From an uncultured Prevotellaceae bacterium (GTDB taxonomy: Bacteria > Bacteroidota > Bacteroidia > Bacteroidales > Bacteroidaceae), in assembly GCA_946186505.1 (NCBI GenBank), contig CAMHNI010000007.1, positions 1 through 64,000 on the forward strand: 64,000 nt of DNA. The letters run 5' to 3'. The notes under the pieces were generated by a model. That model was not told where the DNA came from and searched no databases. It saw nothing but the letters and a program-made list of their open reading frames with translations. Position 1 is the stretch's first letter, and each line of letters begins with the position of its first letter. This document shows positions 8,214 to 30,791 of this stretch, in pieces. Position numbers and translations under genes: made by a program.

Positions 8214-10259
8214 TTATCCTTCGAACTCCTGCTTCTTGACAAGCCGAAGCAGGTATTCCACAGCCTTTGGTGCTTTCTCTCTCGCTATTATAAGCTTATG
8301 AGTAAACTCCTCTTCAGGCATCTCAGAGTTAAAGTCATCCACTAACTCGCGAGGGTCGTTGCTTGTTTTTACCAATACCAACCTCTTCCGTTTCATTATA
8401 AAGCGGAGCGAAAGAATTGCCTTGTCGTACTTCGGCCTTACCTTTATCAGTTCTTGCATAAGGTTAAGTCCTGGATCTCCGATATGGAGCTCGTTGAGCA
8501 TAGCAATCATATAGAGCACCTTCGCATCTGGCGTTGACATGTCGAAAACGTCGCCCATCAGCACATTCACGGCATCTGCCTCTTGATAACGTTCGAGTTT
8601 GGCCAGACAACGTGACTTCACATAGAGCGCCTCCTGGCATTGGTGCTGGGCCAGCACGCTATCGACATATTCCAAAGCCTGCTCAAACTCCCCAGCATAG
8701 AGGCTCAGCAAAGCCACGAGGAACTTGGGTGCCCAATGGTCAGCCGCTTTCAATTCTGTTGGTATCTCTTTGACGCATCCAAAGAGTTTATCATCACAGA
8801 TGACGGTATCAAGAAAACGCTTGGTCTGTTGCATTGCTTCCTTTATATCTCCTTCGGCAGCCTTTTTCTGAATCAGTATCAAGTACTGCTTGGCCGCCTC
8901 ATCATAGTCGTGATGAGCCAGAAACTGATAGACAGCCTTGCCACTCTCAATCTCGCTGTTGATGACCTGTTCGTCGTTATAGCCGTTGGCATACGCCAGC
9001 ACTTCACGGCTGGTATGGGCATACTGAGGAATGATAGGACGGGAAAGGAACAGTCCTTCTAACGAACGCACACGACTTAACGCCACATAAAGCTGGCCTG
9101 CAGCAAACATGCCTCGGCTCAAATCTAAATAGAGTTTATCGAACGTCATGCCCTGACTCTTATGTACCGTTATAGCCCAAGCCAAACGCAAAGGGTACTG
9201 TGTGAAGGTACCCATCAGCTCCTTCTTCATCTTCCGGGCCTCCTTGTCATACTCATAGCTGTACGACTCCCACGAGCAGTTAGGCACCACGTATGCAGCC
9301 CCGCCATCAGTTGTCACCTGTATCTCGTCCTTGCTCAGCTTGGTGACAGTACCGATGGTGCCGTTCACCCAACGCTTCTGCTGGTCATTGCGGGTAAACA
9401 TCACTTGGGCACCCACCTTCAGTTTCAAGGTCATATCCACAGGGAAGCGTTTCTCCTCGAACTTGCCCGTCACAGTTCCTTCGTAGATGTATTCCTCAGC
9501 TTCAATCTCGGCAAGCCGCTGCTGGTTGAGGTTATCTGCCGTTCTGTTGAGCGAAGCCAGTGTGATCACCATACCATCCTCCTTTGTAGGCTGGCAAACA
9601 CGCTCGTTCAGGTGCATCAAGTTCTCCGGTGTTGTCTTGTTCAGCCGCACATTCTCCAGAATACGCAGGAAGTCCTCGTCCTCCTGACGATACACCTTCT
9701 GGAACTCAATCTTCACCAGCCTCATCCGCTTGATGACGTCTGCCTTGTAAAAGAAGAAGTCTTCCGTATGGTAGAGGTCGTGCATCAGTTCATGCTCTGC
9801 GCCCTGCTTCACTACTGGCGGCAACTGGAACATATCGCCCACAAAGATGACCTGCTTGCCACCAAAGGGCAACGACGAACGCAGCGTCTTGCGCATCGTG
9901 TAGTCTATGGCATCAATGATGTCGCAACGAACCATTGACACCTCATCGATGATAATGGTGTCTGTGTGGATTAGCGTCAGGATACGTGCCTCACTCATCT
10001 TGCCCATCGTGCCTGGCGTGCAGACATCCATAGGCAGTCCGAAGAACGAGTGGATGGTATCGCCACCTGCTAAGATGGCTGCCACACCCGTCGGTGCCAG
10101 CGTGATGAACTGCTTATCCACCATCTTCTGCACATTGCGCAAAAAGGTTGTCTTACCTGTTCCTGCCCTACCAGTAAGGAAGAAACTACTGTTGGTGTTG
10201 GCAATCAGCTCGAAAGCCATCACCTGCTGCTTGTTCTGTGTGTCGATCATGTTCTCCAT
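8214..10259 (-). CDS. Pif1/RecD-type SF1B DNA helicase with C-terminal helical repeat region
   Basis: ATP-dependent 5'-3' DNA helicase. Walker A GRAGTGKT, Walker B DTIIIDEVSM, motif III GDMFQLPPV, and C-terminal motifs TVHKSQGMTFDKLYLDLSRG and QLYVALSRVRSLEGL are all intact within residues 1-430. Residues of about 430-680 form TPR-like helical repeats (AKQYLILIQKKAAEGDIKEA; ALYVKSRCLAKLERYQEADAV), a usual Bacteroidota extension. An upstream TTG (10277) exists, but the leader GATAAGACTATGG matches that of the preceding gene, so ATG 10259 is preferred. It follows the 10264 gene by 4 bp and belongs to the operon controlled from 11352-11428. Confidence 0.88.
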   Translation of the reverse strand: MENMIDTQNKQQVMAFELIANTNSSFFLTGRAGTGKTTFLRNVQKMVDKQFITLAPTGVAAILAGGDTIHSFFGLPMDVCTPGTMGKMSEARILTLIHTDTIIIDEVSMVRCDIIDAIDYTMRKTLRSSLPFGGKQVIFVGDMFQLPPVVKQGAEHELMHDLYHTEDFFFYKADVIKRMRLVKIEFQKVYRQEDEDFLRILENVRLNKTTPENLMHLNERVCQPTKEDGMVITLASLNRTADNLNQQRLAEIEAEEYIYEGTVTGKFEEKRFPVDMTLKLKVGAQVMFTRNDQQKRWVNGTIGTVTKLSKDEIQVTTDGGAAYVVPNCSWESYSYEYDKEARKMKKELMGTFTQYPLRLAWAITVHKSQGMTFDKLYLDLSRGMFAAGQLYVALSRVRSLEGLFLSRPIIPQYAHTSREVLAYANGYNDEQVINSEIESGKAVYQFLAHHDYDEAAKQYLILIQKKAAEGDIKEAMQQTKRFLDTVICDDKLFGCVKEIPTELKAADHWAPKFLVALLSLYAGEFEQALEYVDSVLAQHQCQEALYVKSRCLAKLERYQEADAVNVLMGDVFDMSTPDAKVLYMIAMLNELHIGDPGLNLMQELIKVRPKYDKAILSLRFIMKRKRLVLVKTSNDPRELVDDFNSEMPEEEFTHKLIIAREKAPKAVEYLLRLVKKQEFEG

Positions 10260-10263
10260 AGTC

Positions 10264-10770
10264 TTATCGCTGTTCAAGTTTTGGGAGTATTTGGGTTAAA
10301 CGTGTGTTGAAGTCGGGGTCGAGGAAGCTCTTATAGCATCCTGAGATCAGTGTCTGAGCCTGTTCTGCAATCTGCTCCGCCGGAGTACAGATGCGCTGGG
10401 TCTTCATGACGCCAGTCAGGAACTCCTTTACCATCAGTTCTGACTCCTGACGGATAAACGCCTCGTTGCGGAACACCTTGTCGTAGTCGCGCTTCTGGAT
10501 CAGTTCCATCTTCTGCCCGTTGAAGGCATACAGCTCAATGCTGTCGATGTAGGTCCAACTGTGGTACAGACCCACCTTCTCAACGATGACGATACGATCG
10601 CAGAAACGTATGCCAATGTAATGGCGGTGTCCTTTATTGCTTTCGTACTCGTCGCAGATGAACATCTTCTGGCTGTTGTCCCAAGTAGGAATATGTACGC
10701 GAGGGCTGCCGTATGTAGGCAGGATGCTGTCAAACAGGCTCTTGTTGATTGCTTTGGTCAGTGTTGCCAT
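10264..10770 (-). CDS. Hypothetical protein, paralogue of the next gene upstream
   Basis: 168 residues, cytoplasmic. The central region IRFCDRIVIVEKVGLYHSW, then IELYAFNGQKMELIQKRDY and a helical stretch ending LTGVMKTQ, aligns along its length with IRLSNRLMVYYDLGQGYAYT, IKLFCFDGQKANLIAQKYW and FLEGQLKLQ of the 10828-11274 product. The two are diverged tandem duplicates of one family. No function is recognised. Start leader GACAAGACTATGG. The gene sits 57 bp downstream of its paralogue and 4 bp before the helicase. Confidence 0.72.
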   Translation of the reverse strand: MATLTKAINKSLFDSILPTYGSPRVHIPTWDNSQKMFICDEYESNKGHRHYIGIRFCDRIVIVEKVGLYHSWTYIDSIELYAFNGQKMELIQKRDYDKVFRNEAFIRQESELMVKEFLTGVMKTQRICTPAEQIAEQAQTLISGCYKSFLDPDFNTRLTQILPKLEQR

Positions 10771-10827
10771 AGTCTTGTCGGTTTTTGTGGTTGAACTTCT
10801 TGTTATCCTTTTCGCAGGCAGTCGCCC

Positions 10828-11274
10828 TTAGGCTAACTGCTTGCGTTGTGTCTCTTCTACCATGCCTCGTGCGAAGCTGGCCAGTTCCTGGTCGCTGACG
10901 TGTGCGCCCTGCAACTTCAGTTGACCTTCCAGGAAGCCTTTCAGCATCAGAATGCACTGCTCCTTGGCGAACTGCTCGTTGAAGATGCGGTAGTCACAGC
11001 CACCCCAGTACTTCTGCGCAATGAGGTTTGCCTTTTGTCCGTCGAAGCAAAACAGCTTGATGCCATTCAAGAAGGTATAGGCGTAACCCTGTCCCAGGTC
11101 GTAGTATACCATCAGCCTGTTCGAGAGACGAATCGCCTTGTAGTACATATTCCCTGCTGCGCTGGTATAGCCCTGCGACAGAAATACGTTCTTAGCAGCA
11201 TTGTAGGTCAATTGCTCTCCAGAGAGTGCTGGTAGAGCCTTCGTTGCGATGGATTGGAGTGATGTGTTCATCAT
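10828..11274 (-). CDS. Hypothetical protein, first gene of the helicase operon
   Basis: 148 residues, cytoplasmic and mixed alpha/beta, homologous to the product of 10264-10770 (shared hydrophobic beta segments and xFDGQKxxLI motif). It is the first gene after the operator/promoter at 11352-11428. Its link to the helicase and to the sensor-kinase cassette through that promoter is the best clue to its role. Family not recognised. Two adjacent ATGs (11274, 11271) are possible starts. Confidence 0.7.
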   Translation of the reverse strand: MMNTSLQSIATKALPALSGEQLTYNAAKNVFLSQGYTSAAGNMYYKAIRLSNRLMVYYDLGQGYAYTFLNGIKLFCFDGQKANLIAQKYWGGCDYRIFNEQFAKEQCILMLKGFLEGQLKLQGAHVSDQELASFARGMVEETQRKQLA

Positions 11275-11351
11275 AGTAGTTGTCCATTTTTAGTTCCCAC
11301 CACTAACGTTTCGCAGCGTCAACTCTGGGGTGGTTTCAGAGATTGACGCTG

Positions 11352-11428
11352 CAAAGATACGGCAACTTTTTGATGCTTGCAAGAAAACAAGCCTTGCGAA
11401 CGGTTCAGTTCTACCTGGAACCGTTTTC
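11352..11428 (-). promoter_or_regulatory. Promoter with upstream inverted repeat, copy 1 (helicase operon)
   Basis: Minus strand: -7 box TATCTTTG (11352-11359), -33 TTG (11380-11382), spacer 20 bp. The 32-bp block 11397-11428 carries arms AACGGTTC/GAACCGTT (11399-11406, 11418-11425) and starts 14 bp upstream of the -33 box. Copies 2 and 3 (13753-13829, 17233-17306) have the same two distances. Expected to drive the genes at 11274 and below. Confidence 0.75.
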
Positions 11429-11433
11429 AGTAT

Positions 11434-12390
11434 TCAATCTTGAAATTGCCAATTTGCTAAATTCTGTTGTTTATCCATATGCATTGCTAAGTATGGGATA
11501 AACCAAGAAATAAGTTCAATTATAGCGAAAAGAAGAGATTGTATTATTAATGTATCTTCCCTTTCTGAAACAAATTGATGCACCTCATACTGAAGACTGG
11601 CACGTTTATGGGAACCATCTTGTACCATCCTTACTATAAATTGCATCATCATGTGAAGTGGCTTAGGCAATATTTCTTCATTCAGTTTAAACTTTTCTGC
11701 TTTTGAACATAAGAATAAACTAAAATTATTAAGTGAGAGTCCTTCGGGAACTATCCCGAAATAAGCAGATACTGCATTCATGTTTTCAAGAATTTCTGAA
11801 CGGAATTGGTTGAAATACCTTTCAGTACCAGTAAGAGAGCCTTCTCGACTTTGTTTGAGCAACTCTCTGATTAGGTTATATGATTTGGCATGGCATTGTT
11901 TGTCAAATATCTGAAAGTAATTAAGTTCCTGCTTATATTGATTGTCTATTTGAAATTCCGCACTATTTATTTTATCAACATCATCTTTTATTCTATTGAG
12001 AAGTGGTAGTAATCCATTCCCCTTAAAGAAAATGGCATTGTTGTCTTTGAAATAGCTCAACTCGTCCTCATCGACGAGATCAGACAGATTTACTCGCTGT
12101 GTATAGAGGTAGAATGGTAAATGCCTGTATTCGCCTATCAACCTCATTGCTCTTCTGAGACCAGAAACAATCGTTTCATCTGAAGGAGTAAAATCTCTTG
12201 CTGTAAAGTTTGCATCGACAATTACAGCATCAATGCGATAATTGACGTTTTTCAACTTCTCTTCTAGCATGGTAGCATTATTGCATTTTACGACATCAAC
12301 ATGCAGTTTTAACAACAGTGCCTTGCTGGTTTCATCCAGCAAAGCATCTATTTCGTCATCAGCCCATATAATCTGATACGTCTTTTCCAT
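11434..12390 (-). CDS. Receiver-domain protein with unrecognised C-terminal domain (partner of HsdS-like kinase)
   Basis: 318 residues. N-terminal receiver domain (about 1-140): acidic pocket WADDEID, phospho-acceptor aspartate in AVIVDANF (about residue 58), a threonine in YLYTQR and the lysine in IFFKG. The C-terminal ~170 residues are all-helical and hydrophobic (IIQSLLFAIIELISWFIPYLA) and contain no HTH or known enzymatic motif. They align with the other receiver in this locus: GIVPEG/GILPDW, an ILP...L...TR-like helix, and the end ANWQFQD/ANWDIKD. It follows the kinase gene by 20 bp; probable phosphotransfer partner. Confidence 0.8.
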   Translation of the reverse strand: MEKTYQIIWADDEIDALLDETSKALLLKLHVDVVKCNNATMLEEKLKNVNYRIDAVIVDANFTARDFTPSDETIVSGLRRAMRLIGEYRHLPFYLYTQRVNLSDLVDEDELSYFKDNNAIFFKGNGLLPLLNRIKDDVDKINSAEFQIDNQYKQELNYFQIFDKQCHAKSYNLIRELLKQSREGSLTGTERYFNQFRSEILENMNAVSAYFGIVPEGLSLNNFSLFLCSKAEKFKLNEEILPKPLHMMMQFIVRMVQDGSHKRASLQYEVHQFVSEREDTLIIQSLLFAIIELISWFIPYLAMHMDKQQNLANWQFQD

Positions 12391-12410
12391 AAAAAATCAT
12401 TTTTTAAGAA

Positions 12411-13715
12411 TTACAACTTTAAAGGAACAGTAACCATGAATGTTGTCCACCATTCATTTTTATTCGCAGATGAAACCTCTTCGCTTATAAAGTCAAGAGT
12501 TCCTCCCATCGAAGAAACAATTTTGAATACATGACTGCCACCAAGTCCAGATCGACCTGTTTCTGAACCGAATTTCCCAGAGGTAATGTAATCGTCAATG
12601 CTAAAGTCTTTCGGCATCGGCTTTCCATTATTACCGATGGCAATAATGACAGCATTCTTACTACCAATGGAAGTTCGGTCAAGATGTATCTTGACTATGT
12701 TTCCAGAAGCTTTGGTTTTATGGAATCCATGTCTATTTGCATTATCAAGCAGACAATCCATCATAATGGCAAGAGCTGTTTCGTTAGCAAGAATAGTATT
12801 CTCTTCTTCCAACTCACCATCGTAATAGAATTCGATAGAAAAGGTCTTGGAACCATAGTTTTCCCATCCAAGAATATACCGCTCAATAAAATCAACAATG
12901 TTTATCTTTCTCTTGGGATAATCATTGAAATCGACACCATTCATCTCTATCAGGCGCTTGATATATCCAAAGTTGTCTCGGATGTAGTTAATCCTCGACT
13001 TCCCTTCATCATCTACATCTAGCGAAAGAAGTTCCAGCGCGTTATTGATGCGCGTATATGGAGTACCTAATATATGAATTAGATCTGAAGAAGTCTTCTT
13101 GAGCATTTTCCGCTCTTTTGATGCCACAATATCATCAAGGTATTTTTCCTCAGCCCTGAATTCACTTATCCTATCCCTCTGTTGTGACAGAGAAGGAATC
13201 TCGCCCTTTAAGGAAACACCATGGCTGTCACTCATATCATATAGGAAACATTCCTCCATGGTGTGACTGGCTAAATCTCCATTTGGAAGTACAAACGCCT
13301 CAAAATAAAGGGAATAATCGCGACTTTTGAGTAACTTTTCCCAAAAGCCTTGTCTACATAGGAAGAGTACGAACTCTGGAAGCAGCTTACTGAAATCAAG
13401 GTTGAAAATCAAAAAGCCTTTGGGCGAATACTTACCCTCTTCTATTTTCTCGAAGCGGGCTGCAGGCACAAAGACAGGGCTATCCTGATTGGCTATCACA
13501 TAGGCCATTCTGGGATTCTTAATGTCTAACACTAGAGCTTTTCGATCCACCTTGTGGAAGGTTCGGTCGTTAACGACTCCGTCAGAGAGTTCAGAGGGAA
13601 TAACATAGATAGAATCCCAATCCTTTGCAAAGTTATCGGCAGTAAATACCTTACCTTTAGCCTCACCAAACTTCTCGAAATTAATCACGCCCAGACTACT
13701 GCCAAGATTACTCAT
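12411..13715 (-). CDS. Sensor histidine kinase with HsdS-like N-terminal target-recognition module
   Basis: 434 residues from ATG 13715; a TTG at 13724 would add three. Residues of about 40-190 resemble one half of a type I restriction specificity subunit: VLVLDIKNPRMAYV, SPVFVPAARF, GFLIFNLDFSKLLPEFVLFL and the closing IPSLSQQRDRISEF, which mimics the HsdS pattern of xPSLxxQxxI before its long helix. A DHp helix with the phospho-acceptor motif LIHILGTPYTRI (His about 214) follows, then a GHKL ATPase domain: N-box CLLDNANRHGF, G1 GNNGKPMP, G2 GRSGLGGSHVFKIV. No membrane segment, so it is cytoplasmic. Own promoter at 13753-13829. Confidence 0.82.
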   Translation of the reverse strand: MSNLGSSLGVINFEKFGEAKGKVFTADNFAKDWDSIYVIPSELSDGVVNDRTFHKVDRKALVLDIKNPRMAYVIANQDSPVFVPAARFEKIEEGKYSPKGFLIFNLDFSKLLPEFVLFLCRQGFWEKLLKSRDYSLYFEAFVLPNGDLASHTMEECFLYDMSDSHGVSLKGEIPSLSQQRDRISEFRAEEKYLDDIVASKERKMLKKTSSDLIHILGTPYTRINNALELLSLDVDDEGKSRINYIRDNFGYIKRLIEMNGVDFNDYPKRKINIVDFIERYILGWENYGSKTFSIEFYYDGELEEENTILANETALAIMMDCLLDNANRHGFHKTKASGNIVKIHLDRTSIGSKNAVIIAIGNNGKPMPKDFSIDDYITSGKFGSETGRSGLGGSHVFKIVSSMGGTLDFISEEVSSANKNEWWTTFMVTVPLKL

Positions 13716-13752
13716 AAAAATCAAAAATTAAAATTAAACTTTATTTCGTTTG

Positions 13753-13829
13753 CAAAGGTACAACCGATTTCCGTATGCTGCAAGCATTTCAGCAATACGA
13801 ACGGTTCAGTTCTACCTGGAACCGTTTTC
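13753..13829 (-). promoter_or_regulatory. Promoter with upstream inverted repeat, copy 2 (HsdS-like kinase unit)
   Basis: Minus strand -7 TACCTTTG (13753-13760), -33 TTG (13781-13783), spacer 20 bp; inverted repeat block 13798-13829, identical over 32 bp to copy 1, begins 14 bp upstream of -33. It overlaps the last codons of the 13812-14882 gene, so part of that gene's C-terminus (NGSR) is encoded by the repeat. Confidence 0.75.
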
Positions 13830-14882
13830 CTTCTTTATTTTTGCAGCTTTATAATCTTTAATATCCCAATTGGCGGCATTATTTTCGACATTTCTATTTT
13901 CTTTCAAATAGTTTCTGTACCATAGAATGAAATCACTTATTTGAAAAGCAAAACTCTTAAGAAGCAAGGTTGAATCATTGACTTTACTTAGATACTCTTC
14001 TTTTTTCACATCTTTTTCTTCCTTATTGTCAGAATGACAAAAGGCAGGTATTATTCTAGTCATACCTCTCAGTGTTTCTTTAAGAACAGCAGGAAGAATT
14101 TGTTTTTTACATTCGATAATAACTACATCATTCCCTTTTTCATCTTTTCTCATAGCTGACATACCTGATAACAAGCAACTGGACCATTGAAGGTTTACTT
14201 GCTTACCCCAATCAGGAAGAATGCCATGTGATGACATTGAACGGAAGATATATTCCAAGACGGTACGAGCTTTCTCGAACTTGTCGTTATAGTCCTTATC
14301 CTTAATATCTTTAGGGAAGTGTATTGGCACAAGCAAATCTTCCAGAGCATTATATCCGTTGTCATCTATGCCGCACTCTTCTACTGCCTCGAAAACATGA
14401 CGATATATCTCCTGAATCTGTATACGAGGAGATTTGTAAGCATGATAACGGATTCTTCTGAACAGTTTCTCGTTATCTACATTTTTGGAATAGTACTTTT
14501 TGTTTTCGCTATCAGTCCAGTCTTTGTCCCATTGCATACGCTCATCATTGATAGAATCTGACACCTCAGACTCATCACCACCAGTTAGGACATACCATGG
14601 AATGATGTGGCCGTTTTTCTCACTCAACACAGAAATATCCTTCAGAGCCTCACGTAGAAAAACAATGGCACTATCCTTGCTGTCACGATGGTGCTTACAT
14701 TTTGCATCAAGAATGATAGCAGACCATCGATCATAGTCCCCCTCCAATGCAGCTTTTGCATCATCCCAACATGGTAAAGGGACCAATTCCAAATCAAAAC
14801 TCTCTGCTTTTAGCGGATAAGTTTCTGTCACTTTAGGGTCGTCCTCGACCCATAGAACCTGTATCAAATCATACGCTTTCAT
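13812..14882 (-). CDS. Receiver-domain protein with unrecognised C-terminal domain (partner of HsdM-like kinase)
   Basis: 356 residues. Receiver domain about 1-175: acidic pocket VEDD, phospho-acceptor in AIILDAKC, threonine in YVLTGGDES and lysine in YYSKN. The loop after the aspartate is longer than usual, with HHRDSKDS. The C-terminal half is helical (LEDLLVPIHFP, ILPAVLKETLRGMTRI, SFAFQISDFILWYRNYL) and homologous to that of the 11434-12390 receiver, ending ANWDIKD. No DNA-binding motif is obvious. The start lies 6 bp from the stop of the kinase gene, indicating an operon and a cognate pair. Confidence 0.8.
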   Translation of the reverse strand: MKAYDLIQVLWVEDDPKVTETYPLKAESFDLELVPLPCWDDAKAALEGDYDRWSAIILDAKCKHHRDSKDSAIVFLREALKDISVLSEKNGHIIPWYVLTGGDESEVSDSINDERMQWDKDWTDSENKKYYSKNVDNEKLFRRIRYHAYKSPRIQIQEIYRHVFEAVEECGIDDNGYNALEDLLVPIHFPKDIKDKDYNDKFEKARTVLEYIFRSMSSHGILPDWGKQVNLQWSSCLLSGMSAMRKDEKGNDVVIIECKKQILPAVLKETLRGMTRIIPAFCHSDNKEEKDVKKEEYLSKVNDSTLLLKSFAFQISDFILWYRNYLKENRNVENNAANWDIKDYKAAKIKKENGSR

Positions 14883-14888
14883 ACCTTA

Positions 14889-17204
14889 TTACAATTTCAA
14901 AGATCTAACAGTGTTAGAATGGTTAAACGTTAGAACATATTTAACAGGAAAATCATTATCTGGCGAAGATACAATTTCCACCTTTCCATCATATCTCTGC
15001 ATGATGTCATCTATTTCATTACACCCGATGCCATTGTGGCCATCATTATGAAGGTTGGTGGAAACTCCATACTCCAATAAAGATGCAGTGTCTCTATCGT
15101 TGGGAATTGCAGAACCATTATTGTCTATCTCAACAATCAATGCCATACCATCAACATGCCATGAGAATCGAAGTTGATAGTCATTGCGTGACTTATCGAC
15201 AAATCCATGAGCTTTAGCATTAGAAATGATGTTCTTGAATACTCGTTCTAATGCATCCTTAGGGAATAAAAATAGATTAAGAGAATCTCCCTTCCGTATG
15301 ATGACATCTCCTGTGGAGGGATCCTTAAGATCTTCAATAGCCTGATTATGGCCTGGTTCCCATGTCATGATGGGTTTAAAGTTCAACCAGCCCTTTTCGT
15401 TTTTCTTAACATAGTCCTCTATGAACTTCTCAGGGTCAATCCATTCCGGATTACCAAAAGAGAATTCTACAGATGCTATATGATCCAATGCAGGCAGCAT
15501 GTCTTTCAGACCTTGAGATATGAATTCAAACGCCTCACGAACAGTCTTTCGTTGATTACGTGAGATATTGTCATCATCATGAAGTTCGCCATTTTGCTTA
15601 ATGCGGTATGCATTTAAAGCATAGAACATAGCCTCAATGGATGTAAGAGATTGTGTCAGTGCGTGTTTACGCATACGCACAGCCTTTTTATAAAACTCAT
15701 TCTCTTGTCTTAATTCTATTTGTGAGGAAGATAGAGCTTTACAACATATGTCAGCCAGATACCTGTCTCGCTCATTGACATCATGACATGGCACAATGAT
15801 ATTATCCAAGAAAACAGGCATAAATGCCATCATATTACCATCGTAAAAATCGAAGAAAATGGCTGATATTTGCTTTGCCACAATAGGGTCAAACAGTAAA
15901 GATGTAGCATATCTTAGATCAACACCTTCTTTGGCTGTAAAACAAGCTATACAATCAAGTACTGCATATGGCAGATCGGTTTTGGCAGTTATTCCCGCAT
16001 AAACCTTTGTCCCTCCGAAAAGGAGTATACCTGCAAAGTCAACATTATAGCAGTTTGATGCAGGGTCGTCTGCATTTACGCCATATTCTACTCCCTTTTT
16101 TATCTCCTTTTGACTTATATCGGCATCCTTGAATTCATTACCAAGATTTTGTGGGATAACCAATGGTTGTTCTAAAGACACTTTTTGTACTATATGATTG
16201 AAGTCATAATTCTCTAGAAGGTTAGACAGAGGGATTCCATTCTCTGGTTTTTCTGTTAAGTAATACCCAGGAAGAAGAATCTGGGCTGAAATCTGGCTAA
16301 AATCAACCTTCTTAGATTCTTGGATTACTCTGTCTTGAATATCAACTTCCGAATGCTCCATTTTCTCTATTACCATGATGTATCGGTAAATACTATTACC
16401 TTCTGAATATTTGATAATAGATTTAATTGCTTTGTCAGCGACAAGCCTATTTCTGAATGATACAGCCTCTTCTTCCGTGCTGGCCATGAAATAAGGGTGA
16501 GATTCCATAACCATCGTTCCATTATTTGCTAATGCAGCATAGAGGGTCTCAGATGGGATAAGGAACCCTGGGAAGAAACCAGAGCCTGATATGATTATGT
16601 CTATAGTTTCTTCTTCAATTTTATCGACATTCTTGTATTGTATGCCAGCAGCGAATAAACGAATCTTCTTCAATGCAGACTCGTCATTGTCTTTATCATC
16701 GCATAAAATTACACATTGAGGAAATAGCATTGCTCCATCTCCAAGAGTGTCATTTTCGAGGTAAATTCGGCTTCCTGGCTTTGCAGTAACATACTTAGCA
16801 GCCTTTCTTATGAAAGAGTAATCTCCCTTCTTCAAATAAATAGTATTTCTAGTAGATTCACTACCATAATGCAATCCTTTTGAGAAAATGAAATCCACTG
16901 TATCTCTGAAATTCTCAATCAAAAAAGCATATTCTTCTGAATCAAGAACATCTTTCCAAAAGCATTCCTCATATTTGGAAAGTCTATCCAGAATACTTGA
17001 ATCGGCTTTTTCTCCGGCAACGTCATTATATAGTTTTATCAGAAGCTGATGATCTGTCCAACCATCTAGTCCATATTCACAAAGCCCCACTCCAAAGTCA
17101 TCATCACCTATAATGTCATAGTTTGCATGATTCTCTACATAGTTACGATACTTGGCAACAAGTGCCTCTACTGTGAAGTTGCTGTTGTTGTTTGCTGTAC
17201 GCAT
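14889..17204 (-). CDS. Sensor histidine kinase with degenerate HsdM-like methyltransferase and HsdS-like regions
   Basis: 771 residues from ATG 17204; GTG 17228 is an alternative, but the leader CCAAAAACAACGAAACTATG matches neighbouring genes. Residues of about 95-285 follow the N6-adenine methyltransferase layout of HsdM: PGSRIYLENDTLGDG where motif I DPxxGSG is expected, DIIISGSGF where NPPF/Y is expected, then GTMVMESHPYFMAS, a FRNRLV...IKSIIKYSEG segment and a final beta strand. Both catalytic motifs are altered, so it is probably inactive. Residues 310-490 resemble an HsdS recognition domain (ILLPGYYLTE...IPLSNLL). A DHp-like helix has His about 514 (KHALTQSLTSIE). GHKL ATPase: N-box NIISNAKAHGF, G1 DNNGSAIP, G2 GHNGIGCNEID. 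Cytoplasmic. Confidence 0.8.
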   Translation of the reverse strand: MRTANNNSNFTVEALVAKYRNYVENHANYDIIGDDDFGVGLCEYGLDGWTDHQLLIKLYNDVAGEKADSSILDRLSKYEECFWKDVLDSEEYAFLIENFRDTVDFIFSKGLHYGSESTRNTIYLKKGDYSFIRKAAKYVTAKPGSRIYLENDTLGDGAMLFPQCVILCDDKDNDESALKKIRLFAAGIQYKNVDKIEEETIDIIISGSGFFPGFLIPSETLYAALANNGTMVMESHPYFMASTEEEAVSFRNRLVADKAIKSIIKYSEGNSIYRYIMVIEKMEHSEVDIQDRVIQESKKVDFSQISAQILLPGYYLTEKPENGIPLSNLLENYDFNHIVQKVSLEQPLVIPQNLGNEFKDADISQKEIKKGVEYGVNADDPASNCYNVDFAGILLFGGTKVYAGITAKTDLPYAVLDCIACFTAKEGVDLRYATSLLFDPIVAKQISAIFFDFYDGNMMAFMPVFLDNIIVPCHDVNERDRYLADICCKALSSSQIELRQENEFYKKAVRMRKHALTQSLTSIEAMFYALNAYRIKQNGELHDDDNISRNQRKTVREAFEFISQGLKDMLPALDHIASVEFSFGNPEWIDPEKFIEDYVKKNEKGWLNFKPIMTWEPGHNQAIEDLKDPSTGDVIIRKGDSLNLFLFPKDALERVFKNIISNAKAHGFVDKSRNDYQLRFSWHVDGMALIVEIDNNGSAIPNDRDTASLLEYGVSTNLHNDGHNGIGCNEIDDIMQRYDGKVEIVSSPDNDFPVKYVLTFNHSNTVRSLKL

Positions 17205-17232
17205 AGTTTCGTTGTTTTTGGTTTTCACGCTG

Positions 17233-17306
17233 CAAAATTACAACCTATTTTTAATTGTTGCAAGCATTTCTGTTTCACGAACGGTTCTTTTCTCCGAAGA
17301 ACCGAT
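17233..17306 (-). promoter_or_regulatory. Promoter with upstream inverted repeat, copy 3 (HsdM-like kinase unit)
   Basis: Minus strand -7 TAATTTTG (17233-17240), -33 TTG (17261-17263), spacer 20 bp; inverted repeat arms AACGGTTC (17280-17287) and GAACCG (17299-17304) start, like the other copies, 14 bp upstream of -33. No gene ends here, so the repeat cannot simply be a terminator of an upstream gene; this argues for an operator. Confidence 0.75.
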
Positions 17307-17587
17307 TTCATTAAACGAATAGGCTGGCATTACCAGCTTGAAGTTAATGCTATAGGCATCTCAAATTTATTTTTTTACGTGCAAAGATACACATTATTTG
17401 TAATAGGTGAGCGCAGATTAATGTGTATTCATTAGATTATAACACTTTTTAAACCAATAATGTTCCATCATATCAAAATAATGCGTATCTTTGCACCAGT
17501 TTTATTGGTAGCGAGCCTATTAGAGCCATAATCAATAAAAATGGGGTGAGCAATGGTGTTCATTCCAACTTAAAATTAAAAAAGATT

Positions 17588-17785
17588 ATGGAAATAGAAA
17601 AGACGCTGTTGGTAACAGCAAAGTATGGCCCGCTCGAATTTCACGAGACAGCATGGCCGTACAACGAAAATGTGCATGACGCACAAGTTGAAGATTGTGT
17701 GAAAAGCATCTGTCGACAAATTGCCGAAACAGGAAGAGCAGAGATGACGGATGCGTTTCAGGTGACAAGTGAATTAATTGAATAG
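17588..17785 (+). CDS. Small hypothetical protein
   Basis: 65 residues from ATG 17588 (MEIEKTLLVTAKYGPLEF), acidic, soluble. A strong promoter lies upstream (-7 TATCTTTG 17486-17493) with a leader of about 90 nt. An in-frame ATG at 17546 would lengthen it by 14 polar residues but is less likely. No family recognised. It is divergent from the sensor-kinase cassette. Confidence 0.6.
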   Translation: MEIEKTLLVTAKYGPLEFHETAWPYNENVHDAQVEDCVKSICRQIAETGRAEMTDAFQVTSELIE

Positions 17786-17802
17786 TCACTTACCTCTATT
17801 TT

Positions 17803-17835
17803 CCCAAGACGGAGTTATGTTGGCTCCGCCTTGGG
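17803..17835 (+). terminator. Hairpin after the 65-residue gene
   Basis: Arms CCCAAGACGGAG and CTCCGCCTTGGG with one mismatch and a 9-nt loop, 18 bp after the stop at 17785. No T-run follows, so termination strength is uncertain. Confidence 0.5.
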
Positions 17836-18195
17836 ATGATGTCAAGTAGATTACAAACGGGCTTAATAATAACACGGCTGGTGCAGTTGGCCCCTGCAGT
17901 GACAACCAGTCTTAAAACAATGTATGCATATGAAACAATTTGTTCATCGTGCTTAGATTGAGTGTAGAAGGATCGCTCAATCGTTAATGCACAAGGTCGG
18001 AAGAATGATTCTTCCATTATCCTTCGTGTTAAGTTTCGGAAATCTCCAGTCTGCCTATCATGATTAGCTGTTGTATCCAACACTGAGCAACAAGCTCAAA
18101 TGTGAGTTTCTGTAGTTGGGGGCAGCAGAGAAAGTGAGAAAATAGAGTCAGACATATGTCATGGAGCCGAAACATTGACATCCTTAAAATCGGAA
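17836..18195. other. 360-bp stretch without a supported gene
   Basis: No open frame here has a credible start, codon use or homology. The base composition is mixed and the stretch ends at the tRNA-like structure. It could be a decayed gene or the body of an unrecognised structured RNA. Confidence 0.4.
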
Positions 18196-18257
18196 ACTGG
18201 TAAATGGGCTGTCCAGGTTGTTGCCCAGGAAGGGTGGTTCGAGTCCACCTACCAGTT
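18196..18257 (+). other. tRNA-like structure lacking a D arm
   Basis: A perfect 7-bp acceptor stem (ACTGGTA 18196-18202, TACCAGT 18250-18256), AA at the 8-9 positions, a 5-bp stem TGGGC/GCCCA (18205-18209, 18223-18227) with a 13-nt loop, a 5-nt variable segment GGAAG, and a perfect T arm GGTGG-TTCGAGT-CCACC (18233-18249). There is no D arm and no encoded CCA. Its 3' end overlaps the stop codon of the convergent WYL gene. It may be a degenerate tRNA, a tRNA mimic, or an attachment-site remnant. Confidence 0.4.
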
Positions 18258-19343
18258 CAATTTTTGAGAATACTGCATTATCTGTTTCTCAAGTACATCT
18301 TTTAACTGTTTTCTCAATGATATGGGCTGCATTACTTCAAGATACTGCCCGTAAGCAAGAATCTTGCCTCGAAGTTCACGATTAGGTTCAATCGTCAATG
18401 CAACTTCACCATAACAACCATCTTCATGTTCTCCAAAGGGAAGAATTACTCTCTGGCTATGATGCAAAGGCTTGGTAAGCAACAGACCATGCTGGTATTC
18501 CGTCTTTGTACGGATAACAACTTGCTCAATTATTGCATCTTTCTCGTGGGTTACACCTATTATGTTATTAAAGAATACCTGATAGAAGCCTTTTGGGGCA
18601 GGGATGTATTCTACACCTTCAACGATAGTGACGTCACCTACAATTCTATCCAAAGGAACATTGTATGCTTGATATGGTTCACGATTCGCTTCACCAAACA
18701 CGAACCAACGGCCATTATACTCCTTCAGGTACTGTGGATGGAATATCAGTTCAAAAGGTTCTTGTCCGAAGCGCTGATAGGAAAATCTTAGTACCTTCTT
18801 GTCGGTAATGGCCTTATTGAATACAGGCAGCAATTCAATATTCGTTAGATTCTGTTCAAGTCCAGTACGAATGTGCAAAACACCGTCTTCAGCCTCTCTC
18901 TTGGTGTCAAGCAACAGCTGAGTATTCTCAAAGAAAGCAGAAAACCAACTCGCAGGTAATATGCCTGCTGAGGCTTTGCAGAAAGAAACATAGTCTTCAA
19001 CGGATTTCTGAACGACTGCTTTGCGCTCTTCAGAAAGGGGATCATCATCACTTCCAATGTACCGGTATGCTTTTCCTTTGCTTTGACCATTATTCTCGAT
19101 ACATCCAGGACAAGCCTTCTCTAATGCCTTTAATATTTCTGGAAAAGCTTTTTTCAGCTCGCCATATCCCGTCTCGCTGTTACAGGCAATTCTATCGTAA
19201 TATCCTTTAGGTCTACCACAATATAACGCAAGTATATCAGCATAGCTGACAAACTCACGCTTCATCAGTTCCGAATAAATCAGATTCACAAACTCTGATC
19301 TAGCTCCAAATCCGGCAAAGATATTTTTCGTAGGCATATTCAT
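18249..19343 (-). CDS. WYL-domain transcriptional regulator
   Basis: 364 residues. An N-terminal winged-helix-like region (about 15-90, ELMKREFVSYADILALYCG and a following GYGELKKAFPEILKAL helix) is followed by a WYL domain (about 185-260: VLRFSYQRFGQEPFELIFHPQYLKEY, then WFVFGEA) and the WCX C-terminal extension (PFGEHEDGCYGEVALTIEPN). WYL proteins often sense nucleic-acid or nucleotide ligands and regulate defence or repair genes. Promoter -7 TATCTTTG at 19361-19368. Its position next to the kinase cassette makes it a candidate regulator of that region. A diverged fragment of the same gene type is at 21600-21845. Confidence 0.85.
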   Translation of the reverse strand: MNMPTKNIFAGFGARSEFVNLIYSELMKREFVSYADILALYCGRPKGYYDRIACNSETGYGELKKAFPEILKALEKACPGCIENNGQSKGKAYRYIGSDDDPLSEERKAVVQKSVEDYVSFCKASAGILPASWFSAFFENTQLLLDTKREAEDGVLHIRTGLEQNLTNIELLPVFNKAITDKKVLRFSYQRFGQEPFELIFHPQYLKEYNGRWFVFGEANREPYQAYNVPLDRIVGDVTIVEGVEYIPAPKGFYQVFFNNIIGVTHEKDAIIEQVVIRTKTEYQHGLLLTKPLHHSQRVILPFGEHEDGCYGEVALTIEPNRELRGKILAYGQYLEVMQPISLRKQLKDVLEKQIMQYSQKLNW

Positions 19344-19499
19344 GACGTTTTAGGATAGTGCAAAGATACACCTTTTTTTCAAAACGGCAATAAAACAACT
19401 AAGAATTTTGTAGTTTCACAAGCCTTGTTATCCGTTTTTCCTTGGAACATATAGGAATAAGGTATATCTTTGTGGCGCAAACTCAAAAAAGAAAGTATT

Positions 19500-19931
19500 A
19501 TGAAGAAGAGAATTTTGATTGGAGCGATGATGTGCTGGATGGCACTGAACGCACAGGCGCAGTATCAGTATGACAGGGCACTGCCGATGTCGACGGTGGA
19601 TCTGTACGACACCGGAGTAATGAACATGTATCTTAGTGCTTTGGCACAAACACATGCAAGGAGGCAGCAGCAGTATGAGGAACTTACCGATCAGGCAATC
19701 GAGGCTTTCAACAAAGGACGGTGGAATTATACCATCAGCTATGTCAATCAGGCTCTTAGGACAGGTTTCTACTGTGGGACGCTGTATTACATTCGTGGCT
19801 TTGCCTATGAATCGTTGGGTGACTTCAAGTCTGCCAAGAAAGACTATAAGACTGGGAAGAAATACGACTCCGTAGAGGCCGCCCAGGCTCTGGAACAGCT
19901 GAATGTTAAAATGAAACAAAGAAGGAAGTGA
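19500..19931 (+). CDS. Secreted/periplasmic protein with a TPR-like pair of helices
   Basis: 143 residues from ATG 19500 with a Sec signal (MKKRILIGAMMCWMALNAQA, cleavage after AQA). The mature part contains helices spaced as in one or two tetratricopeptide repeats: ALAQTHARRQQQYEELTDQA, then YYIRGFAYESLGDFKSAKKDY. Promoter -7 TATCTTTG at 19465-19472. It ends immediately before the repeat-protein gene, probably one transcript. Function unknown; possibly an envelope scaffold. Confidence 0.7.
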   Translation: MKKRILIGAMMCWMALNAQAQYQYDRALPMSTVDLYDTGVMNMYLSALAQTHARRQQQYEELTDQAIEAFNKGRWNYTISYVNQALRTGFYCGTLYYIRGFAYESLGDFKSAKKDYKTGKKYDSVEAAQALEQLNVKMKQRRK

Positions 19932-19969
19932 TGATCCAACATAGAATAAAAAAAAGAAAGGAACGAATT

Positions 19970-20506
19970 ATGAGAAAGATTTCAATGATGCTTATAGCCA
20001 TCACATTCGCCATCGCAGCAAACGCACAGAGTTACAATGTCGGCACATCTTCGAGATATACCGATAGTTTCGGAAACTCCATCAGTACACACCGCAATCA
20101 GTATGGGCAGACAACAGGCACTTCGTCATCGTACACCGACGCTTTTGGAAACACAACGACTACCCATCGGGACCGTTATGGCAACACCATCGGAACGTCT
20201 TCGACCTATACTGACGCTTTTGGAAACACAACGACCACCCACCGGGACCGTTATGGTAACACGACGGGAACGGCAAGAAGCTATACGGATAACTTTGGCA
20301 ATACCTCGACATCATATTCCGACGTATACGGAAGGAGCAGGGGCACTTCGAACAGTTATACCGACTGTTTCGGCAATACCACCACGAACTATCAGAACCG
20401 TTATGGTCAGTCCATTGGCTCCTCGTCAAGTTATACCGATGCCTTTGGTAATACGACAACCAATCAGCGTAGCAATAATTCAAGCACAAGTATCTGGAGT
20501 TGGTAG
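19970..20506 (+). CDS. Secreted protein made of six 25-residue tandem repeats
   Basis: 178 residues from ATG 19970. A signal peptide (MRKISMMLIAITFAIAANAQ) precedes six repeats of exactly 25 residues with the core GTSSxYTDAFGNTTTTHRDRYG, rich in Thr/Ser/Gly/Asp and aromatic residues, ending NNSSTSIWSW. Such repeats suggest an extended beta-structured surface or fibre-like protein; no named family is recognised. The 75-bp DNA repeats are themselves highly similar and are partly copied at 21845-22036. A longer start at 19928 would hide the signal peptide. Confidence 0.75.
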   Translation: MRKISMMLIAITFAIAANAQSYNVGTSSRYTDSFGNSISTHRNQYGQTTGTSSSYTDAFGNTTTTHRDRYGNTIGTSSTYTDAFGNTTTTHRDRYGNTTGTARSYTDNFGNTSTSYSDVYGRSRGTSNSYTDCFGNTTTNYQNRYGQSIGSSSSYTDAFGNTTTNQRSNNSSTSIWSW

Positions 20507-20516
20507 TAATCTTATT

Positions 20517-20547
20517 AGCGGTTGTTCGGAAATTCCGAACAACTGCT
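20517..20547 (+). terminator. Hairpin after the repeat-protein gene
   Basis: Arms AGCGGTTGTTCGGAA and TTCCGAACAACTGCT, nearly perfect with a one-base loop, 10 bp after the stop at 20506. No T-run, so the call rests on position and stem strength. Confidence 0.55.
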
Positions 20548-20593
20548 ATTGTGGGCTGACAAAGTCCAACTAATAAGTGTTTCTTATAAGTTC

Positions 20594-20622
20594 ACGAAAG
20601 TCTTCTCAGCATAATGTTCTTT
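20594..20622 (+). repeat. Imperfect direct repeat, copy A
   Basis: Shares CGAAAGxC..TCTCAGCATAATG(T/C)TCTTT with 22828-22854. The two copies flank a 2.2-kb stretch of accessory genes and each lies after the 3' end of a gene. Confidence 0.45.
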
Positions 20623-20719
20623 TCCAAAACCGGCATTAGAGAAAGCACGTGGCACAGAAATATGGAGAAAGATTTGGTTTTTCACTCTATTATCACTATC
20701 TTTGCACCCACAAACCGTA

Positions 20720-20974
20720 ATGAAGATGAAGGAGAGCAAGCCATATCCCATTGTGGAAGAAGAGGACAGTAGCTGCATGACGGCACAGGAGCCAGTGGCT
20801 GACGTAGCATACTCTTATGAAGGAACTGTAATTCCTGATGATGTGGACTATGCCCGCATCGTGAATGGTGTACTGCAGGTGACTCCTGACATTGAAGAGG
20901 AGATTGCAGAGGTGGATGGTGGAGATACAGTCTCAATGGCTGAGTTCAAAAACATGTTTGCCCGATGGCTCTGA
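20720..20974 (+). CDS. Small acidic hypothetical protein
   Basis: 84 residues from ATG 20720 (MKMKESKPYPIVEEEDSSC), strongly acidic and ending with a helix SMAEFKNMFARWL. Promoter -7 TATCTTTG at 20697-20704 leaves a very short leader. The layout (disordered acidic part then short helix) resembles an antitoxin or an adaptor, but no partner toxin is adjacent; function unknown. Confidence 0.55.
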   Translation: MKMKESKPYPIVEEEDSSCMTAQEPVADVAYSYEGTVIPDDVDYARIVNGVLQVTPDIEEEIAEVDGGDTVSMAEFKNMFARWL

Positions 20975-21104
20975 CGATTGAATTCAGCCGTCGTAGCACC
21001 AACCAGTTGCAAAAAATTCTCAGCCACTAAAGATTTATATGAGGACGTAGTATAAGAGGTATAGGTGAGTACACGCCAAGGGTGAGACAAACCATATCCT
21101 TGCA

Positions 21105-25826: not shown

Positions 25827-26945
25827 CTACCAGTTAGGCGGTAGCACGATGTTCTCTACTTCATGCGCCTTATTAAAGAGCGGTGAGATTTCATCATCGG
25901 TGAATCCTGCGATGCCGCAGCCGATGCGGGTCACGAGGAATGTCAGCTCTGGGTGCTCCTTGGCGAACGCGATGAACTCGTCCACATACGGACGGATGGT
26001 CTCTACGCCACCCTGCATCGTCGGTATGCCGTAGCTCTGCCCTTGCAGCCCTACGCCCTGTCCCATGATAGCCCCAAACTTGCGGTAGGCGATGTATGCC
26101 GCTCCACCACCGTGCATTCCCTTCAGATTGCTGCCGAACACGAAAATCTCGTTCGGCTGGAGTTCCGTGATGTGCTCGGACGTAGTACGCTTGCCCGGCA
26201 AGAACTCCGGCGTAGTCCTCTCATGGATCAGATCCTCTGCAATTGAACATTCCATATCTCTGTACTCTTCGCAAGCCATCGGTGCAGGTATCGACATTTT
26301 GGCTTCGCCCGCCGTGGCCTCGCGTCTTGCATACGTCCCTATGTCCATCACCTCAGGCATATCCAGATCCATATCGAAAAACTTCTTGAAATATGGTATG
26401 ATTATGCGCTCCTTTAGCTGTTTATATTTCTGTGAAATGGCCGAGGGGGTCATACCCATTTGAGCCGCAATCTCCTTGCCCTTGAATCCGCGAAGCAGCA
26501 GCATGTCAATAATCAGCCTTTCCTGCCTGGATAGAGGAGCATGGTCGCACACGTCCTCCACCATGCGTTTGAACTGCAAACGCAGGTTGTTGCCAGCGTC
26601 AAACGACATCAGATAGTCCTCAAACGTGATGCTACCGTACTCCTTCTGGTACCACTTCAGTGCATCGAGTACCACGTAGCGGAATCCACCGATGAGCCAC
26701 GACCTCAAACTCACTTCCGGCGAATGATCCTCCAAAGGCTTCCAGTCGTGTTCCATCAGATAGAGTGCATATTGGTGAGCCAGCGACATGAAGTCCAGAT
26801 TCTCCTTCCCGCTCAGTTGATACCGTTGGTCAAACACCACGTAGCCCACTCGGCAATATCCGTAGAAGTATTCACGGATAATCGCCGTGTCACCCATGCG
26901 GAAGCCGCTCAGAATCTCCTCGTCAGACAGTTGCTGATAGTACAT
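25827..26945 (-). CDS. Sigma-70-like factor fused to a macro-like (A1S_2505-type) domain
   Basis: 372 residues. Residues of about 1-195 look like a sigma-70 family factor: an N-terminal region 2-like part and a C-terminal HTH (LSRQERLIIDMLLLRGFKGK, IAAQMGMTPSAISQKYKQLK). After a linker, residues of about 260-372 match the small macro-like domain found in phages: NEIFVFGSNLKGMHGGGAA, GQGVGLQGQSYGIPT, FLVTRIGCGIAGFTDDEISPLF. Such domains resemble ADP-ribose-binding macro folds. The fusion suggests transcription control by an ADP-ribose-type ligand; this is inference. Promoter -7 TAACTTTG at 26963-26970. Confidence 0.78.
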   Translation of the reverse strand: MYYQQLSDEEILSGFRMGDTAIIREYFYGYCRVGYVVFDQRYQLSGKENLDFMSLAHQYALYLMEHDWKPLEDHSPEVSLRSWLIGGFRYVVLDALKWYQKEYGSITFEDYLMSFDAGNNLRLQFKRMVEDVCDHAPLSRQERLIIDMLLLRGFKGKEIAAQMGMTPSAISQKYKQLKERIIIPYFKKFFDMDLDMPEVMDIGTYARREATAGEAKMSIPAPMACEEYRDMECSIAEDLIHERTTPEFLPGKRTTSEHITELQPNEIFVFGSNLKGMHGGGAAYIAYRKFGAIMGQGVGLQGQSYGIPTMQGGVETIRPYVDEFIAFAKEHPELTFLVTRIGCGIAGFTDDEISPLFNKAHEVENIVLPPNW

Positions 26946-27842: not shown

Positions 27843-27880
27843 AACAGGTAAAAAAAGGCGTTGCCTCTTTATTACCTGTT
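27843..27880. terminator. Bidirectional terminator between vWA gene and pectin operon
   Basis: Outer arms AACAGGTAA/TTACCTGTT, inner pairing AAAGGC/GCCTCTT, followed by T-runs in both directions (TTTT on plus, TTTTTTT on minus). Confidence 0.75.
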
Positions 27881-27910
27881 TTTTGGTGCCGTTGTGGCGA
27901 TAATAAGGCG

Positions 27911-28060
27911 CTAACCGGCCTCGTCATAATTTCCTTCGTTGTCAATGATGATGAGTTCATCATCGTCTGTGAAAGCCTCTATAGACCCCGCCATGATCGC
28001 ATAGCGTTCATTGACGTGGTAAATGTATATGGCCGGAGGACTATATGTTGCCTTTCCCAT
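27911..28060 (-). CDS. Possible 49-residue protein overlapping the pectate lyase end
   Basis: ATG 28060 to TAG 27911, overlapping the last 20 bp of the pectate lyase gene in another frame and ending 31 bp before the terminator at 27843-27880. The product starts MGKATYSPPAIYIYHVNERY and ends with an acidic segment DDDELIIIDNEGNYDEAG. The codon composition looks protein-like, but no family is recognised and the overlap is unusual. Confidence 0.35.
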   Translation of the reverse strand: MGKATYSPPAIYIYHVNERYAIMAGSIEAFTDDDELIIIDNEGNYDEAG

Positions 28061-30782: not shown

Positions 30783-30791
30783 ATAGTTTGT

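Follow-up and report, generated by a model that had tools for sequence, protein, structure and literature searches.

Kinase-receiver pairs with restriction-derived sensors in Bacteroidota: a candidate DNA-reading switch beside defence genes

The stretch analysed here, the window, comprises the first 64,000 nucleotides of contig CAMHNI010000007.1 from an uncultured Prevotellaceae bacterium. Its positions 11434-17204 hold four intact leftward genes coding two sensor kinases, HK1 and HK2, each followed by a receiver protein, RR1 and RR2. Established findings are the domain make-up of these proteins, kinase and receiver residues that remain intact, a conserved neighbourhood and the loss of a methyltransferase motif (motif IV). 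Kinase-receiver pairs with restriction-derived sensors constitute a Bacteroidota family often encoded beside restriction or other defence genes. The four window genes are proposed, with a probability of about one half, to form a DNA-reading two-component switch for neighbouring defence genes. The signals known for two-component kinases are small molecules, light, peptides and membrane stress; if the proposal holds, a restriction-type DNA-reading module placed on a kinase would allow the cell to sense the sequence or methylation of its intracellular DNA. A signalling system built from restriction-enzyme parts is new in architecture as far as the literature was searched.

Two kinases and two receivers

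The genes and their domains are organized as follows (TRD, target recognition domain).

14889..17204, minus strand: HK1, 771-aa sensor kinase with an HsdM-like core, an HsdS-like TRD, a long helix leading into the DHp, and HATPase
16248..17186, minus strand: HsdM-like region of HK1, spanning model residues about 15-327 and lacking motif IV
15714..16253, minus strand: HsdS-like TRD of HK1, about residues 326-505
15459..15713, minus strand: DHp region of HK1, His522 codon at 15663-15665
14904..15458, minus strand: catalytic ATPase domain of HK1 (N670, NNG, GxG)
13812..14882, minus strand: RR1, receiver (Asp59, Thr100, Lys133) with a DUF4145-like helical output domain (Arg206, His283)
12411..13715, minus strand: HK2, 434-aa sensor kinase with TRD-like N-terminus, DHp (His217) and HATPase
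13125..13715, minus strand: TRD-like region of HK2, assigned by indirect profile comparison
11434..12390, minus strand: RR2, paralogue of RR1 over its whole length (22% identity, E-value 1e-9)

The model of HK1 features an HsdM fold and a TRD fold joined to a complete kinase, with residues 484-544 as one continuous helix linking TRD and DHp. Among solved structures, a profile built from 21 family members matches HsdM of EcoR124II (E 1.1e-45), an S subunit (E 1.6e-15) and a sensor kinase (E 2.2e-16). The TRD of HK1 matches the HsdS profile with E 3.7e-5 and the family TRDs do so with E 1.3e-13. Both model and profiles thus support the first-pass annotation, made from the letters of the window, which had described two kinase-receiver pairs, attributed the sensor of the larger kinase to restriction-modification (RM) proteins and named a structural search for methyltransferase and TRD folds in the N-termini as a check. 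As an observation that annotation is confirmed; its interpretation, a conversion of DNA recognition into phosphorelay, is supported in part. The intact GHKL core that it reported is also found: the phospho-accepting His of DHp and the N and G boxes of HATPase are invariant across 21 kinases. HK1 scores 24.7 bits against HATPase_c, just below the cut-off of 26.4, and passes HATPase_c_5 (22.6 vs 22). A search of the PDB with the single HK1 sequence yielded four immunoglobulin rows plus a single kinase (E 0.98). Plain Pfam searches of the four genes see the ATPase domain alone and PADLOC (2.0.0) has no match for any of them, so that by these tools the locus would be taken for an ordinary sensor kinase.

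Motif IV, [NDS]PP[FYW], is found in 13/13 linked HsdM proteins vs 4/30 kinases, in which it was searched anywhere in the N-terminal part, and is absent from HK1. Its loss from most kinases and maintenance in the linked HsdM suggest that the kinase sensors read DNA without modifying it. The sensor also diverges much more than the kinase core. Median identity across 7021 HK1-type pairs is 26% in the methyltransferase part and 29% in the TRD vs 63% in DHp and 64% in the ATPase. Among 341 pairs with closely alike kinases (DHp at least 90%, ATPase at least 85%) the TRD is below 70% identity in 63 and the methyltransferase part in 118; the reverse case, alike sensors on unlike kinases, occurs in 3 pairs, counted over a denominator that differs from 341. 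In the nearest relative of HK1 a TRD with 65% identity is flanked by parts at 94% and 95%. Such variability is as expected of target-recognition parts.

HK2 is composed of a TRD-like amino terminus, DHp and ATPase (HATPase_c E 6.9e-9, above the Pfam cut-off) and lacks a methyltransferase core. BLASTP aligns HK1 and HK2 in the ATPase domain only (27% identity). There are 186 HK2 homologues at E 1e-3. The HK2 amino terminus matches the TRDs of the larger kinases with E 1.3e-7, or 1.2e-6 when the nearest HK2 relatives are left out. The HsdS-like region formerly assigned to this smaller kinase is a candidate one, indicated indirectly through the larger-kinase TRDs; its direct match to HsdS is weak (E 0.014). 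The HK2 profile retrieved no S subunit from the PDB sequences at E 0.01 and HK2 alone had no match there.

An enzymatically dead HsdM-HsdS part could alternatively serve as bait for phage anti-restriction DNA mimics like Ocr and ArdA, whose binding would fire the kinase. The type I-like sensor without catalytic motif IV and its fast change are compatible with such a decoy, and the top Foldseek match of HK1 is 7eew, a methyltransferase solved with Ocr, a match that may merely reflect the fold. This explanation is nevertheless distinctly improbable: the TRD-like part, which a decoy needs less, is kept even in HK2 where the methyltransferase core is missing.

RR1 has the Asp, acidic pocket and Lys of receivers. 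Its best-ranked Foldseek matches are PorX, spanning the receiver into the following helices, while model residues 155-350 show no clear fold beyond the receiver. No DNA-binding domain was found in the receiver. The output domain shows modest similarity to the DUF4145 profile from the HsdR amino terminus, with E 4.8e-4 and 1.6e-4 (probability 32-50%); reversed controls gave 0.3 and eight other profiles 0.1 or worse. A HEPN-type domain of this kind might be a phosphorylation-gated RNase, the pair acting as a stand-alone abortive infection system similar to a two-gene toxin module. Arg206 and His283 are invariant and for part of the pairs no RM partner is in view, as this idea would have it, but it appears improbable. 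The usual HEPN motif, Rx4-6H, is not conserved among the receivers, the Arg before the conserved His being present in RR1 and RR2 and replaced in several relatives, and the kinship to DUF4145 is modest.

Distribution and genomic neighbourhood of the family

The analysis went beyond the first-pass annotation in uncovering the HsdR-like output domain, a WYL gene, a PIF1-type helicase, a repeated palindrome and a wider family found in operon with type I RM genes. The HK1 subfamily numbers 309 proteins at E 1e-3 among 7998 scored candidates, those sharing most words with HK1, of which 120 were listed. It is present in 8/149 relatives, own genome included. HK1-type loci were located in 18 named contigs, 17 of them annotated (the fragment L109 is omitted and L096 lies on the same contig as L020). 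These loci were found via the kinase, and a receiver is encoded in all 17. Where the contig extends far enough, a WYL gene is positioned upstream in 14/14 loci and a PIF1-type helicase gene, like the one at window 8214-10277, downstream in 15/16. The HK1 search found no relatives in plasmids, and searches of viral contigs with HK1 and HK2 found none that encodes a relative.

A receiver profile detects members in 22/392 genomes of the order (E 1e-5) and 13/392 genomes of the phylum (E 1e-12), own genome included in both. These two even samples yielded 25 loci, 14 of 22 non-own places from the order (16 fetched, 14 counted, 6 weaker places unfetched) and 11 of 12 from the phylum (11 fetched). 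The 1e-12 cut dropped L064 (E 1.8e-11), which shows the WYL-kinase-receiver order, and L065 (E 5.1e-9), which has no kinase. A kinase gene is adjacent to the receiver gene in 22/25 loci, and among 11 kinases chosen solely by this adjacency N6_Mtase is present in 10, HATPase in 10 and Methylase_S in 5. The pairing claimed previously is supported, and the kinases were not found singly in unrelated contexts, with the reservation that a census begun from receivers is poor at seeing lone kinases. A search of 21 genomes with a single receiver found nothing, missed even the genome on which it was centred and is uninformative.

The 22 kinase-receiver loci have a WYL gene in the fetched stretch in 16 cases and a separate HsdM in 13, while neither was found in 15 control stretches from the same genomes (270,316 bases; 20 requested, 15 obtained, two short). 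HsdM in L112 is a 240-aa piece at the stretch edge and in L119 it is oppositely oriented. Separate HsdM is present in 9/11 loci of the phylum sample, to which the search profiles owe nothing. They are not independent of the order sample, since the HsdM, HsdS and HsdR profiles were built on L022, L051, L052, L056 and L059, four of which belong to it.

This neighbourhood bears on two other explanations. In an ordinary two-component system the borrowed fold would sense a metabolite such as S-adenosylmethionine or a nucleotide, and the defence neighbours would be incidental. A Rossmann-type core could bind small molecules and the motif I region is partly retained in some relatives; yet the TRD is retained and variable, defence neighbours are far above control (13/22 vs 0/15) and there is a WYL partner, all of which render this explanation highly improbable. 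The second is a restriction gate, in which the pair monitors host DNA methylation and restrains the linked RM nuclease until modification is complete, the receiver competing with or docking HsdR through its HsdR-like domain. It would account for that output domain, for the frequent separate HsdM in both the whole set and the phylum sample, and for a setting on a mobilizable plasmid (see below), whose new host needs methylation first. Many loci, however, have no RM in view, the HK1-type pairs occurring with the PIF1-type helicase and others with RloAB or type III CRISPR, and the gate is considered rather unlikely.

The fullest operon is a compact run of six genes, WYL-kinase-receiver-HsdM-HsdS-HsdR, in MT835483.1 (L166). 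The mobilizable plasmid pFM-G13 of Myroides odoratimimus (L167, NZ_CP037428.1) keeps this order, but there two additional genes separate HsdS from HsdR. At 27871-31498 its kinase (N6_Mtase 1e-29, HATPase 9.7e-7) is annotated 'N-6 DNA methylase' by NCBI and its receiver 'hypothetical protein'. Homologues are probably hidden in databases under these names, and the family gives a home to genes filed in this manner. MT835483.1 is filed as a bacteriophage. A phage-borne system was discarded, since genes upstream of the operon look like those of a conjugative element and the record is labelled UNVERIFIED.

Proposed hotspot control and mechanism

In the window the kinase-receiver pairs occupy a hotspot whose other features are the following.

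18249..19343, minus strand: WYL-domain regulator, conserved upstream partner
17231..17312, minus strand: 82-nt element upstream of HK1, with palindrome GGTTC..GAACC and a TAnnTTTG promoter-like box
13751..13832, minus strand: second copy of the 82-nt element, overlapping the RR1 3' end, upstream of HK2
11350..11431, minus strand: third copy of the 82-nt element, between RR2 and the helicase operon
10828..11274, minus strand: small conserved hotspot-flank gene, paralogue of the gene at 10264..10770
10264..10770, minus strand: small conserved hotspot-flank gene
8214..10277, minus strand: PIF1-type helicase whose C-terminus is TPR-like; a candidate partner or effector

In the window genus this place is a hotspot bounded by a WYL gene on one side and by the helicase operon on the opposite side. 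Its cargo is kinase-receiver pairs in various combinations, RloAB (L020), AbiE (L092) or type III CRISPR (L075, L076). The WYL gene product matches PF13280 with E 1.3e-6; at E 1 Pfam returned WYL and WCX and no HTH match. PIF1 relatives are common (42/60 genomes at E 1e-60), but the view of this helicase as a general housekeeping neighbour was abandoned because a full-length orthologue at 80% or more is found in just 6/36 genomes of the genus, own included. A YhcG-type PDDEXK nuclease (PADLOC candidate PDC-S02) is repeatedly found beside WYL and kinase genes (L094, L095, L099, L106).

The palindrome GGTTCC-N9-GGAACC stands before the kinases and before the helicase operon. The strict pattern is present upstream of 9/13 kinases in loci with the window WYL type or an unseen WYL, vs 0/30 other loci, three of which (L111, L116, L118) show no WYL at all. 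It misses the imperfect copies before window HK2 and L020 HK1, both scored as misses; in the fetched stretches, 781,505 bases in all, it has a background of 11. The 82-nt repeat gave 10 matches in the own genome; of the 8 located, the palindrome is found only at the three window sites, and a match on contig C73 falls inside another gene. The simplest reading of these patterns is that the palindrome is the operator of the window-type WYL protein. The TAnnTTTG box of the 82-nt element is promoter-like. The idea that the repeat is an integron or transposon end was dropped, as it also precedes helicase operons with CRISPR cargo (L076) or with no kinase pair (L078). The repeat also carries the promoter-like box, and an operator-promoter fits better; an element end or recombination site is a less likely function.

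Several other sequences lie around HK1 and the WYL gene. A 21-nt inverted repeat (95%) at 17379-17399 and 17476-17496 corresponds to two divergent promoter-like boxes. To its right, a 79-aa frame (17546-17785, plus strand) points away from HK1. Directly downstream of the WYL gene, at about 18180-18250, there is a tRNA-like scrap (GGTTCGAGTCCACC) with no ARAGORN or Rfam call, possibly an old insertion end. Rfam gave no match in window 10000-21000.

The trigger of the proposed switch would be contact with a particular DNA site, defined by sequence or methylation state, leading the kinase to phosphorylate the receiver and the adjacent defence genes to be turned on. The kinase dimer would bring a pair of methyltransferase cores together with a pair of TRDs, matching the composition of an M2S1 enzyme, and its closing on DNA would shift the long TRD-DHp helix to elicit autophosphorylation. 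The phosphate would pass to the receiver. Through its HsdR-like (DUF4145/HEPN-type) domain, the receiver would then engage the restriction machinery, the helicase machinery or the WYL regulator by direct protein contact. The window WYL protein, for its part, would occupy the palindromes before the kinases and the helicase operon and so place the island under control as one regulon.

A bolder version, which can be put forward tentatively, is that a whole type I restriction enzyme was rewired for signalling. An M2S1-like kinase clamp on an unmethylated or foreign target would fire the phosphorelay and the receiver would answer with a module borrowed from HsdR. Among two-component systems it would be the first that DNA activates and that can be programmed by sequence, arming restriction enzymes, helicases and CRISPR across Bacteroidota. 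If the DNA-reading switch is real, it would explain how Bacteroidota restriction systems and defence islands switch on only when needed, and TRD swapping would turn it into a DNA sensor that is programmable and reports by phosphorylation.

A number of observations count against the DNA-reading switch. DNA binding by the sensor is deduced from homology, no biochemistry or phage test of the family was found in the literature searched, and the fast evolution of the sensor is equally to be expected if it contacts a protein that changes. Nor is it necessary that the kinase senses the DNA, because CapW, the WYL protein of another system, itself binds single-stranded DNA (PMC13373217). The HK2 amino terminus has the weak direct match to HsdS given above. 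The DUF4145 link of the receivers is modest (E about 1e-4): RR1, RR2 and the scanned relatives reach no Pfam cut-off (best DUF4145 E 0.07), and in a plain hidden Markov model search with the HsdR amino-terminal profile one receiver scores E 0.001 and a kinase better still (E 4e-4, surely chance), for which reason that search proves nothing alone. Among the loci, 9/22 kinase-receiver pairs lack a separate HsdM within the stretch, and 3/25 receivers (L061, L062, L063), counted as misses, have no adjacent kinase and may be orphan or divergent. The L120 pair (G553:C124, 6759-9974) is inside a type III CRISPR operon with confirmed Cas10/Csm1 and Csm4, flanked by Csm genes and by a gene that weakly matches Csx1-type CARF. 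Pfam sees just a weak ATPase in its kinase, accepted on HATPase_c at E 0.0026 and not on the profile of this analysis. The link of palindrome and WYL type, finally, is confounded by the common ancestry of the hotspot of one genus.

Known systems and minor features of the window

Type I RM enzymes supplied the sensor folds and probably the receiver output domain too, and genuine HsdM, HsdS and HsdR genes often follow in the same operon. HK1 differs from them in that it lacks motif IV and carries a kinase, and no cleavage module was found in the kinase-receiver pair. Detocs likewise has a kinase-receiver pair, used there in phage defence, with a purine nucleoside phosphorylase as effector; no nucleoside phosphorylase Pfam match was obtained among the genes scanned here.

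Detocs had been named as the nearest comparison, but CapK/CapS is probably closer in logic, and is the closest among published systems. It consists of a DNA-damage-activated kinase and a repressor encoded upstream of immune operons (PMC13373217, EMBO J 2026). CapK, a helix-turn-helix (HTH)-STAS-GHKL protein that senses single-stranded DNA, phosphorylates a serine of the STAS-winged HTH (wHTH) repressor, and 88/443 CapK are directly downstream of a predicted RM system (PMC13373217). Both families have a GHKL-type kinase beside immune operons and DNA-activated control of defence genes, which for the window family is proposed. The window family differs by its DHp phospho-His, HsdM-HsdS sensor and aspartate receiver. 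There is no STAS Pfam match in the four window genes, the kinase partner being a receiver protein rather than a STAS-wHTH repressor.

BrxR/CapW WYL regulators control BREX and CBASS (PMC12255303, PMC12707154). They have in common with the WYL protein of the window family a location beside defence genes, while the latter accompanies a kinase-receiver pair. Two-component genes are frequent in operon with methyltransferase-associated (NxD) McrB homologues, according to the CoCoNuT study (PMC11090510); the sections of that study covered here describe no fusion of a methyltransferase or TRD to a kinase. According to a BREX survey, BREX and BREX-related loci encode a Schlafen RNase joined in one protein to a minimal histidine kinase and a wHTH (PMC12839542). 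There too a histidine-kinase domain is part of a defence protein, but the RNase-kinase-wHTH organization is distinct from an RM-derived sensor with a separate receiver. The same survey notes that PorX, a type IX secretion system (T9SS) response regulator, carries a PglZ domain (PMC12839542); RR1 ends in a DUF4145-like helical domain. Searches of the open-licence PMC literature found no description of a kinase fused to HsdM or HsdS, in agreement with the first-pass annotation, which knew of no described defence or sensing system of such architecture.

Two further genes of the window were noticed. The region 19928-20506 codes for a small protein that looks secreted and is built from near-perfect 'SYTDxFGNxxTTHxxRYG' repeats. 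The frame at 25827-26945 seems to fuse a sigma-factor-like half to a macro-domain-like half.

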